In this document: piece by piece, positions 1 through 2,679 of the stretch
Numbering within the stretch: the first letter of the stretch is position 1
Layout of the letters: the number at the start of each line of letters is the position of its first letter
NCBI GenBank assembly: GCA_900320795.1
Contig: ONTQ01000017.1
Coordinates: 1-33,700 of the forward strand
DNA length: 33,700 nucleotides
From: an uncultured Bacteroidales bacterium
GTDB lineage: Bacteria; Bacteroidota; Bacteroidia; Bacteroidales; UBA932
Direction of reading: 5' to 3'
Notes under the pieces: generated by a model
Database searches by the model: none
What the model was told of the DNA's origin: nothing
What the model saw: only the letters and a program-made list of their open reading frames with translations
Translations under genes and position numbers: made by a program

Positions 1-83
1 TCCCCACCAAAAATGCAGACCTGCCGCAAAATCACCCTAAACCTGCCACGCATCTCACCTACACCTGGCACCTATCCATTCTG
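1..83. repeat. Left block of degenerate 22-bp tandem repeat (continues off the window edge)
   Basis: Units start at 18 (GACCTGCCGC...), 40 (AACCTGCCAC...) and, more weakly, 62 (CACCTGGCAC...), spaced exactly 22 bp. The first 30 bases match 2389-2418 with one mismatch, and the 40-58 segment recurs at 2450-2468. The block is therefore a direct-repeat partner of the array on the other side of the transposase operon. It is truncated by the window start, so its full length is unknown. No gene is supported in 84-176. Confidence 0.8.
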
Positions 84-176: not shown

Positions 177-1133
177 TCAGCTTTCGGGAACTTCTTGCGG
201 TAAAGCGGGTCTCTTCCTGGAAGGCACCAATGAGCGTACAATTTCTCGTGAAAGTTGCAGGCAGCGGGCCAGTTGCGGAATGGTGGTCCGATAACAGCGA
301 TACAGATAGGGCAGCAATTTTGCTTTCATCTCCGGAGTCAGATCGACAATCGTTTTGCGATACCATTTATCGGCCAGGTTGGCAATGATGGCCAGCATCT
401 CTGTGTCGGTATGGCGAATCCTTCTGTTCAGGGCCAGTTGTTGTACCATCTCAGATTTGTTAACACTGCCAATGGTTTTGAGAAAAAATGCTTGCTCGTG
501 ATTGAAAGCACTCTCCAGGTATTCCCAGTCACAGGCACTGGCCGGCTCAATTCCTCCTTCAATGTTGATGAGCCAAGGAACCGGTCTCAGGTCTTCGTGG
601 GTCCTGAAAGTAGCCCTCATCTCCCTTATGGAAAGGGCCGATACCCTTTTGACAGGGGCCTCGCATCGGCCTTGGACAAACATCCCGCGGTAACTGGACC
701 AACGGTAGTCTTCGATTCTACAGTTGGAATCTTCGGCATTTCGCGGTATGTATGCAAGGACATTGCGCACATACCAATCCGAATCCAGGTACCGGATATC
801 CACCGAGGAGCGGGAGAGGATGCTTTTTTCGGAATACTTCCAACTTAGATATTGGGAATGCCGTTTTTTTATCATCTCGCCGGTTTTCAAAGCGGCCTGC
901 ATATCTGGTGCAAGTATGCAGGTGTGCCCGTGATTGGACATTGCAATTTCCATGATAGTCAGGCCGTTATTCTTCCACGCACTTAAATAGAAGGTCTTTT
1001 CCAAATGGTCGAAGTCTTCTTCGTCCCGGCAAAGAAGAACGGATTCCATTCCTTCCATACTGATATGGAACGGGAAAACTCTTGTCATGGTCCCGTCGGG
1101 AAGACGGCGATCGGGCGTTCTAAGAAAAGCCAT
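177..1133 (-). CDS. REP-associated tyrosine transposase (RAYT/Y1-HUH family) with C-terminal helix-turn-helix-like region
   Basis: Predicted single-strand DNA nicking and joining enzyme of the HUH/Y1 (IS200-like) superfamily, 318 residues. The HUH metal site is H68-G-H70 in SNHGHTCIL. The candidate nucleophile is Y128 in VLAYIPRN, followed by the family signature DYRWSSYRG at about 142-149. Residues 160-318 form a long C-terminal extension ending in a helix-turn-helix-like stretch (about 283-303, TTIPQLARCLQLSREIV). The start at 1133 is preferred because it lies 4 bases after the upstream stop codon; an in-frame extension to 1271 would lie inside the upstream gene. Related 22-bp repeat blocks flank the operon, as is usual for RAYT enzymes and the REP repeats they are thought to mobilise. 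Family assignment is from motifs; activity and the repeat-enzyme link are inferred. The region looks more AT-rich than the core genes. Confidence 0.85.
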   Translation of the reverse strand: MAFLRTPDRRLPDGTMTRVFPFHISMEGMESVLLCRDEEDFDHLEKTFYLSAWKNNGLTIMEIAMSNHGHTCILAPDMQAALKTGEMIKKRHSQYLSWKYSEKSILSRSSVDIRYLDSDWYVRNVLAYIPRNAEDSNCRIEDYRWSSYRGMFVQGRCEAPVKRVSALSIREMRATFRTHEDLRPVPWLINIEGGIEPASACDWEYLESAFNHEQAFFLKTIGSVNKSEMVQQLALNRRIRHTDTEMLAIIANLADKWYRKTIVDLTPEMKAKLLPYLYRCYRTTIPQLARCLQLSREIVRSLVPSRKRPALPQEVPES

Positions 1134-1137
1134 ATTG

Positions 1138-1581
1138 TCAGGATGGCTTTTTGGGGCCGATTGAAATACTTGTGCCCAAAGGGAACATAAAGGCAGAAGG
1201 ATCGCCGAGTGAAACAGGCCGGATGACACGGGAGGGGTCAAACCCGTAGGGCTTTTTAAGATTGTCTGCAAACTTTTCGTAATGAGGAATATAACTGAAC
1301 ATCAAAGTGCTCCATAGCTCTTCGGCATTGTCGTACGGTTGGGCGCATGCAATGATTTCTGCCATCGAAAGATAACGGATGGCCTTGGAGATATGAAGGT
1401 TATGATTTCCCCAGATTTCTTCAATTACGGAGGAAATGGTTTTCCGGAACAATTCATCCATTTCTTTGGCGTGCTTTTTCTTGTCTTTGGGCGGATTTTC
1501 AATCTCATCGGCAAAGGTGAAATCGGTGCTGATGTGCAGTTGGCCGTTCTCGTCCATAAGTACTTCTAAAAACTTTTTCAT
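1138..1581 (-). CDS. Hypothetical protein, middle gene of the RAYT operon
   Basis: A 147-residue protein whose family I do not recognise. It has no signal peptide and no membrane segment. It begins with a hydrophobic beta-hairpin-like stretch (residues 1-22, MKKFLEVLMDENGQLHIS then TDF) that resembles the first 21 residues of the preceding HRDC protein (MQTLLNITLQPDGTPLVT then SDF). A charged linker follows at about 28-45, then a probable helical segment (46-110) and a Gly/Pro-rich tail. The start overlaps the HRDC stop as ATGA (1578-1581) and the stop is 4 bases before the transposase start, so all three genes look co-translated. A role as an accessory DNA-binding or partner protein for the transposase is inferred from context only. 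Confidence 0.7.
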   Translation of the reverse strand: MKKFLEVLMDENGQLHISTDFTFADEIENPPKDKKKHAKEMDELFRKTISSVIEEIWGNHNLHISKAIRYLSMAEIIACAQPYDNAEELWSTLMFSYIPHYEKFADNLKKPYGFDPSRVIRPVSLGDPSAFMFPLGTSISIGPKKPS

Positions 1582-1961
1582 AGGCCCAGTTCTTCTTGCG
1601 TCAAAGATTCTTCCACAATGCGAAGGATGTCTTCTCCATAGCGTTCATAAAGAATATTTCCGAAGCCGCGAATGGCCAGTAATTCTTCGGCCGATAGGGG
1701 AGCGGCATCCGAAATGGTCAGCAGCGTCCGGTTGGTAAGGATGATAAAGGCCGATAGTTTCAGTTCCTTTGCCTTCTCCCGCCGCCATTGGATAAGATTT
1801 TCCTTCAAGGTAGGATGATTGCTCTCGCAATCTTCCAGTCGGACGGGCCCTTTTGCCCATTGTTTCAGTTTTTCCGTTTTTTTGACCTCAATGGAAAAAA
1901 AGTCGCTGGTTACAAGCGGTGTTCCGTCAGGTTGCAGGGTAATGTTTAAAAGTGTTTGCAT
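1578..1961 (-). CDS. Small HRDC-domain protein, first gene of the RAYT operon
   Basis: Residues about 52-118 match the HRDC fold found at the C-terminus of RecQ helicases and RNase D, an auxiliary nucleic-acid-binding domain. The pattern is LKENLIQWRREKAKEL, AFIILTNRTLLTISDAAP, LSAEELLAIRGFGNILYERYG and a final DILRIVEE helix. No helicase or nuclease domain is present, so this is a stand-alone HRDC protein of 127 residues from ATG 1961. Alternative in-frame starts are ATG 1973 and TTG 1985. ATG 1961 is preferred because its N-terminus then aligns with the next gene's N-terminus. It overlaps that gene by ATGA. No convincing TAnnTTTG box was found upstream. The HRDC call is confident; the proposed function (binding single-stranded or hairpin DNA for the transposase) is inferred. 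Confidence 0.8.
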   Translation of the reverse strand: MQTLLNITLQPDGTPLVTSDFFSIEVKKTEKLKQWAKGPVRLEDCESNHPTLKENLIQWRREKAKELKLSAFIILTNRTLLTISDAAPLSAEELLAIRGFGNILYERYGEDILRIVEESLTQEELGL

Positions 1962-2270: not shown

Positions 2271-2361
2271 TTTTTGTGCCAGGTCCTATTTGTGTCTGTG
2301 TCAGGTCTGCCGTGCCTTTGCGTCAGGTGTGTGTTTTCTCTCTGACCTGGCACGGCAAAAA
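2271..2361. repeat. Inverted copies of the repeat core (long-loop palindrome)
   Basis: GTGCCAGGTC (2276-2285) is the exact reverse complement of GACCTGGCAC (2344-2353). With a 3-base insertion, the match extends into TTTTTG on the left and CAAAAA on the right. The same left arm, extended to 14 bases (2273-2286), is also perfectly complementary to 2598-2611 inside the tandem array. These inverted copies could form large hairpins in single-stranded DNA, the usual substrate of Y1 transposases. Confidence 0.7.
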
Positions 2362-2388
2362 GCACAGAAGGCCGAAAACCGTTCCCGG

Positions 2389-2679
2389 TCCCCACCAAGA
2401 ATGCAGACCTGCCGCAAAACCACACAAGACCTGCCGCAAAACCGCCCCAAACCTGCCACGCATCTCACTCAGGCCTGCCTCAAAACTACCTTGGACCTGG
2501 CAAAAAGCCGCCCGGACCTGCCTGCCACTCCTGTACCGGGCACAAAACCACCCCAGGTCTGTCCACATCTCACTCAGACCTGTCACAAAACCACGTTGGA
2601 CCTGGCACAAAGTCGCCCCGGACCTGCCACGCATCTCACTCAGACGTGCCCCCCAACCTGCCACAAAACCACCTTTGGA
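2389..2679. repeat. Right block: degenerate 22-bp tandem repeat array, about 12 units
   Basis: Units begin at 2406, 2428, 2450, 2472, 2494, 2515, then with some indels near 2537, 2556, 2577, 2599, 2621 and 2643, and a partial last unit near 2658. The consensus begins GACCTGSCRC and continues AAAACCRC followed by a variable pyrimidine-rich end. Every third or fourth unit has GCATCTCACTCA instead of the AAAACC half (2450, 2556, 2621), so there may be a higher-order repeat. The array starts with the same 30-base lead-in as window positions 1-30. It lies between the HRDC operon and the 3' end of the PlsC-like gene. Long plus-strand open frames through it are artefacts of its composition. Confidence 0.85.

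Follow-up and report, generated by a model that had tools for sequence, protein, structure and literature searches.

A candidate REPtron-type locus in uncultured Bacteroidales, with small partner genes upstream of a RAYT and an iteron-type palindromic repeat around the operon

Here we analyzed a 33,700-base stretch of DNA from an uncultured Bacteroidales bacterium (the window), which is an entire contig from base 1 and carries a three-gene operon near its left end. The operon encodes a small HRDC protein, a protein referred to here as X, and a RAYT-type transposase, and on either side of it lie ~22-nt iterons (core CAGGT) arranged about a palindrome of 87-90 bp. We consider this probably a REPtron-type locus, in which a domesticated RAYT and one or two co-expressed small partners work on an iteron-type repeat of their own. 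Across related loci, the element that recurs is a module-bearing partner plus a RAYT rather than a fixed trio of genes. What argues more strongly for a system that handles repeats is the repeat, a feature absent from the initial annotation of this DNA.

A coupled operon on the minus strand

The three genes are arranged as follows, in order of transcription.

1578..1961, minus strand: HRDC partner protein, 127 aa from ATG, with an N-terminal module (~25 aa) and an HRDC domain
1138..1581, minus strand: partner protein X, 147 aa
177..1133, minus strand: RAYT-type HUH/Y1 transposase, 318 aa, with H68, H70, and Y128

HRDC, X, and RAYT form a coupled operon on the minus strand, as the initial annotation had proposed. 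The stop of the HRDC gene and the start of X overlap by four bases (ATGA, 1578-1581), and four bases (1134-1137) separate X from the RAYT gene. An alternative TTG start at 1985 is possible for the HRDC gene, and the mechanical open reading frame of the RAYT extends back to 1271. Against Pfam, the HRDC protein matches the HRDC domain at E 5.4e-17, with 62 bits against a curated cut-off of 23.8. The genome to which the window belongs holds nine RAYT-like matches, one of them with an internal TGA (L005), together with one HRDC match and one X match, both inside the window.

The RAYT-type transposase

The assignment of the third gene to the HUH/Y1 transposases was borne out, with H68, H70, and Y128 all invariant in 58 aligned RAYT sequences (window included). 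The Tyr motif reads LAYIPRNA. Sequence families gave little further guidance: the window RAYT matched 0 Pfam families at E<=1, and NCBIfam and Pfam together supplied no family name for it. Y1_Tnp was matched weakly by six of the nine members of alignment A3 (best E 2.9e-4), with no match for the window protein itself. When a RAYT profile was searched against PDB sequences, the two matches were weak and had no relation to RAYTs (E 0.26 and 0.81). The AlphaFold model of the RAYT has a mean pLDDT of 92.3. Its top match in the PDB is 4er8 (E 1.9e-3), a complex of the REP-associated tyrosine transposase of E. coli with a REP hairpin, and the matches that follow are mainly IS608/ISDra2-type transposases. 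None of the PDB matches fell below E 0.001, and the same list includes Thg1-type enzymes at scattered ranks. Based on the rank of 4er8, the many IS608/ISDra2 transposases, and the motifs, the RAYT is predicted to have a Y1-type fold.

The closest other RAYT in the window genome is 37% identical, and there is no near-identical copy in that genome. At L003:1043-1493 (G000:C158), a 52-nt tandem repeat that contains GGTCCA...TGGACC lies, in 8.7 copies, ahead of another RAYT paralogue of the same genome, and it is perhaps the repeat that belongs to that paralogue.

Recurrence of partner and RAYT

Public genomes were scanned with the RAYT alignment, and the best 80 of 144 relatives were kept. A small partner gene lies upstream of the RAYT at 62 of these 80 loci. 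The partner is HRDC alone at 9 loci, X alone at 31, HRDC plus X at 3, and at 19 a third type, Y, which is X-related, has ~117 aa, and did not figure in the initial annotation; at the remaining 18 there is no recognized partner. These counts include the X of L081, which has no assigned start codon, and the Y of L110, which is a shortened frame. Within the window's RAYT clade, 34 of 37 loci have a partner, with none recognized at three. The gap between partner and RAYT is within 30 nt in 56 of the 61 cases measured, most commonly 2 nt (26 cases), with extremes of -119 and 140. The distant RAYTs of L031, L041, and L043 are also preceded by HRDC-type partners (profile E 2e-24 to 5e-18).

By label, 78 of the 80 relatives are Bacteroidales, Bacteroidia, or Prevotellaceae, one is Fibrobacter, and one is Lachnospiraceae; many come from ruminants. 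The locus with the Fibrobacter label (L073) is 95% identical to L074, and that with the Lachnospiraceae label (L113) is 83% identical to L125, L074 and L125 both being Bacteroidales. L073 and L113 are likely mis-binned contigs.

In searches that began from the partners, X was found in eight of a set of 101 genomes, one of the eight being that of the window. The eight fall in one genus out of 41, and the seven other copies are 38-55% identical to the window X. An HRDC gene upstream of X was sought within 1.5 kb in those seven genomes and none was found; a scan of genome contigs with X alone found no relative. The HRDC protein had matches in 174 of 400 genomes of the genus. Among the best 30 of these loci, five are RecQ-sized frames and 25 (window included) are small proteins, 15 of which belong to a gene run that includes a RAYT, either next to it or with X in between. 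The other 10 of the 25 have no adjacent RAYT, one being an HRDC-X pair, and a re-check of five such loci (L023, L024, L036, L039, and L047) again found no RAYT. Loci of the two genome searches overlap (for example, L010/L071 and L012/L058), and their counts were not pooled.

The initial proposal of a conserved HRDC-X-RAYT operon therefore needs amending. The operon recurs in many species, but HRDC is not obligatory, and the full trio is confined to 3 of the 80 loci plus the window. Small genes without a RAYT neighbor, named at that time as evidence against the proposal, do occur for HRDC at the 10 loci above, and to that extent they count against it. For X, the arrangement exceeds chance, as a RAYT is the next gene in 8 of 8 genomes.

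The expected recurrence across Bacteroidota did not hold. In 139 genomes of the order, representing 127 genera, the RAYT subfamily was found at E<=1e-30 in two, both of the window's genus and the second weak (E 6.3e-36); none of the 126 other genera had it. Among 129 sampled genomes of the family, the HRDC matches outside the genus are frames of at least 548 aa, except for two short frames, G552:C30 (159 aa) and G504:C98 (84 aa, one stop). Since the RAYT subfamily is found in two of the 139 genomes of the order and the HRDC matches outside the genus are mostly RecQ-sized, the partner-RAYT system seems to have arisen within a single large genus.

Partner families and their exchange

In alignments, a similar N-terminal module is present in short HRDC, long HRDC, X, and Y partners, with a consensus of roughly M-K-x-hydrophobic-L-E-V-x-x-D-x-x-G-x-hydrophobic. 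Profile comparison relates X to Y with a probability of 98.0% over 74 columns, and X to the long HRDC partners with 97.1% over 65 columns, the X-like part being residues 1-65. Y and the long HRDC partners are related at 91.6%, X and the short HRDC partner at 83.9% over 25 columns, and the short HRDC partner and Y at just 19%. From these comparisons we infer, as the simplest history, a mosaic in which the long form would combine the module, middle helices, and HRDC, X and Y would be without HRDC, and the window HRDC protein would be without the middle.

The model of X (mean pLDDT 85.0, with residues 126-147 under 50) starts with a beta hairpin, continues with three long helices, and has no fold match in the PDB. 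X matches no named family in Pfam or NCBIfam, with one sub-threshold match to MRPL52 (E 0.0062). A MAFFT alignment had been suggestive of X as a degenerate HRDC, and this idea was rejected: profile comparison supports the N-terminal 25 or 65 residues only, X has no Pfam HRDC match, and its model is without a PDB match.

Partner labels cluster on the RAYT tree, with 20 changes required, where shuffled labels require 42.8 on average and were as low in 0 of 200 shuffles. Within the window's clade, HRDC, X, and HRDC plus X alternate. This is a quick tree in which 24 of 78 inner branches are poorly supported; the window's clade of 37 has a support of 92. On this tree, the partner type has switched repeatedly.

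The repeat unit at the operon

The window holds one repeat unit upstream of the operon, spanning about 2280-2660, and part of a second at the contig edge.

2280..2328: three CAGGT iterons at 22-nt spacing (2280, 2302, 2324), one unit arm, on the operon's upstream side
2324..2411: palindromic core of the upstream unit, 88 bp, with one of four 5-mers changed (CCGGT for CAGGT)
2407..2660: inverted ACCTG iterons, the other arm (2407, 2429, 2451, 2495, 2516, 2578, 2600, 2622, 2656)
1..23: tail of a second core copy, ended by the contig edge (compare 2389-2411)
19..67: three ACCTG iterons of the second unit (19, 41, 63), beyond the RAYT gene 3' end

The exact core pattern is missing at 2324..2411 because one 5-mer is changed. 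The contig starts inside the apparent core of the second unit, and the assembly probably broke within the repeat.

Similar units are common around the relatives of this operon. Tandem repeats with a period of 21-23 adjoin many operons, often on both sides, and loci of the window's clade commonly have [CG]AGGT, or its reverse, in chains spaced at ~22 nt, against a control of 2 chains in 635 kb of mononucleotide-shuffled sequence. Between head-on arms, the core reads CAGGT-N-ACCTG-N-CAGGT-N-ACCTG. Although lengths from about 72 to 114 bp would have fitted the core pattern, all of its 80 unique strand-wise matches are 87 to 90 bp long, with 0 matches in shuffles; genome G028 by itself has cores of 88, 89, and 90 bp. 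A relaxed definition of the unit, which gave 4/81 hits on shuffled flanking sequence along with numerous weak ones beyond the clade, was replaced by a strict one. By the strict definition, units are present at 29 of the 37 loci of the window's clade, with none at the other eight, at 1 of 44 other loci, and in 2 of 405 dinucleotide shuffles. Many loci have units on both sides of the operon (for example, L055, L057, L058, L073, L074, and L078). The flanking units are palindromic themselves, so as terminal inverted repeats they would pair in either orientation.

Six cores of relatives, folded as DNA, did better than shuffles (z -2.84 to -5.09), and the predicted fold is one long hairpin in four of the six, with L055 and L163 folding otherwise. 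The window core is imperfect and its folding signal is weak (2300-2440, 141 nt; z -2.06). The cores run for 87-90 bp between CAGGT and ACCTG, and reading of the sequence found no 20-40 bp hairpin with a GT[AG]G foot.

In front of CAGGT, the most frequent triplet is TCG at 12 of the 16 loci in the window's subclade (L053 tied). At 13 of the 21 remaining clade loci it is GCG (L063 tied; no data from four), and the preference is never reversed between the two groups. The window's own bases in this position are mixed, mainly TGC, TGG, and CGG, and not TCG.

Dispersal of the unit and its genomic context

Counts of the unit across the 400 genomes of the genus rest on iteron and core patterns that had been derived in part from some of these very genomes. 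Of the 400, 52 contain the triple iteron pattern, and the reversed control gave 13 hits in 9 genomes. The core pattern is present in 83 genomes, with single matches on one strand about as common as control hits. At least two cores on both strands are found in 28 of the 400 genomes, with up to 17 and 18 cores, and in 0 with the reversed-pattern control. The RAYT subfamily (E<=1e-95) is present in 20 of these 28 unit-rich genomes versus 94 of the 372 others (Fisher p 1.2e-6). This association supports the view that the palindromic repeats around the operon behave like the RAYT's own. Eight of the 28 have no RAYT at E<=1e-95, and four of these (G044, G246, G304, and G434) are 97-99% complete, so another RAYT or a past loss must be invoked for them. 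Core families in G044 and G246 look related yet differ.

Used as a DNA query, the solo unit of L159 gave dispersed matches, mostly 71-81% identical, and 10 of the 20 genomes searched had any. The window assembly is 85% complete. There, the array pattern at <=1 mismatch occurs in the window only, and the triple iteron match is the window's own. The core pattern has one match per strand, both outside the window, a single candidate that slightly favors dispersal in the window's own genome.

Empty sites were sought for two solo units. For L159, a search of 20 genomes found one orthologous site, with the unit in both species. For L160 (G188:C20), comparison with G434 C54/C55 found a rearranged site and no clean empty one. 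The flanks of the L160 unit are thus rearranged in a close relative, G434, and units may be rearrangement hot spots.

Five species (L050, L051, L058, L061, and L079) share the genes that border the operon. At L050 it is inverted relative to the other four, with breakpoints between operon and neighbors, at repeats, as if recombination between palindromic units had flipped the operon block.

Function of the locus and alternative explanations

In the REPtron-type mechanism that we favor, a unit exposed as single strand, as on the lagging strand, would fold into a hairpin. The partners would bind and hold the iterons or the hairpin through HRDC or through the helices of X or Y. The N-terminal module that they have in common would attach them to the RAYT or to one another, giving a physical complex. 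The RAYT, as an HUH/Y1 single-strand endonuclease/transferase, would then cleave beside the hairpin with Y128 and transfer units to new sites, a mobility that may continue at present. The initial annotation had likewise suggested a multi-protein machine for handling repeat DNA. The recurrence of the operon, the DNA-binding type of the HRDC domain, and the palindromic repeats all agree with that suggestion; the fixed trio of proteins does not survive. A more specific version, which we put forward tentatively as a real possibility, is a multi-subunit RAYT with exchangeable adaptors on one docking module, serving a new class of iteron-plus-palindrome repeat that replaces the REP hairpin. In this version as a whole, each adaptor would add a different DNA-handling part, namely HRDC or the helices of X or Y.

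The partners could instead regulate the RAYT, as repressor, antagonist, or translational leader, with no part in DNA processing; coupling would then set the amount of RAYT, and the iterons would serve as operator sites for HRDC or X. Tight coupling and the upstream position of the partners would suit such a role, and ~22-nt iterons beside an operon do resemble repeated binding sites, but operators would not need to be dispersed away from the operon as the units are, nor would they need a palindromic core of narrow length range. We consider regulation unlikely on these grounds. The units that flank the operon on both sides at many loci also recall the ends of an autonomous insertion sequence, with the operon as its transposition genes and the whole element mobile. 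This appears improbable, as the near-identical copies typical of IS200/IS605 elements were not found in the window's own genome, where the next RAYT is the 37% identical one, and other genomes carry 1-5 members of the subfamily. The operon also keeps its chromosomal site in five species, inverted in one.

It could also be argued that HRDC and X serve some other repair function and merely adjoin the RAYT as a by-product of a shared ancestral locus. The small HRDC proteins without a RAYT beside them (10 of 25) are in keeping with this, but partners have been swapped repeatedly upstream of the RAYT, they recur with distant RAYTs, and they are present at 34 of the 37 loci of the window's clade. 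We give this explanation very little credence. The REPtron-type locus, with partners and RAYT acting on their own repeat, remains the reading that we prefer.

Relation to known systems

The locus resembles the RAYT/TnpA_REP proteins and REPtrons (PMC6006769, PMC8266576) in its 4er8-like predicted fold, its invariant HUH and Tyr residues, a gene flanked by its own repeat, and palindromic repeats that are dispersed. Unlike the REPtrons described there, it has partner genes in the operon, and in place of a 20-40-bp GTAG-type hairpin its repeat has a core of 87-90 bp between arms of 22-nt iterons. The classification of TnpA_Y1 proteins in PMC6006769 gives motifs for subclasses 2.2 to 2.8 and 3 from which LAYIPRNA differs. 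Its subclass 2.6 is similar in setting, being from Bacteroidetes and having "atypical secondary structures" at its flanks, copies of which are found at other places in the genome. Subclass 2.6 is listed there with 179, which we read as a length, and YIH[QN]NP; the proteins described here have about 310 aa and LAYIPRNA. Neither HRDC nor RecQ is mentioned in the main text of PMC6006769, and the words "partner" and "cofactor" are absent from PMC8266576.

The nearest known arrangement is that of the TIRtrons (TIRYT), described in PMC3733652 as long inverted repeats, with no relation to GTAG REPs, on the two sides of a RAYT-like gene. Those repeats are moderately abundant in some genomes, and some are self-complementary or occur in dimers or clusters. 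In both systems a RAYT-like gene lies between non-GTAG repeats. The locus described here adds partner genes, which go unmentioned in the description of TIRtrons in PMC3733652, and its repeats are iteron arrays on either side of a palindromic core. A small HRDC gene also accompanies the diversity-generating retroelements of Treponema denticola, where, according to PMC4891356, an HRDC accessory gene overlaps the reverse transcriptase gene. The likeness is one of arrangement: in each case a small HRDC gene overlaps within an element that changes DNA, but its partner is a reverse transcriptase there, and here the HRDC gene itself overlaps X.

Our searches of openly accessible papers yielded no RAYT partner or accessory protein, HRDC included. 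To our knowledge, no RAYT with dedicated partners has been known before. The function of RAYTs and the persistence of RAYT/REP systems are unsettled, and RAYTs have been treated as lone proteins. An exchangeable partner combined with a large iteron-type repeat makes partner dependence, repeat recognition, and the coevolution of enzyme and repeat directly testable. More speculatively, other RAYTs may use host HRDC-domain proteins such as RecQ.
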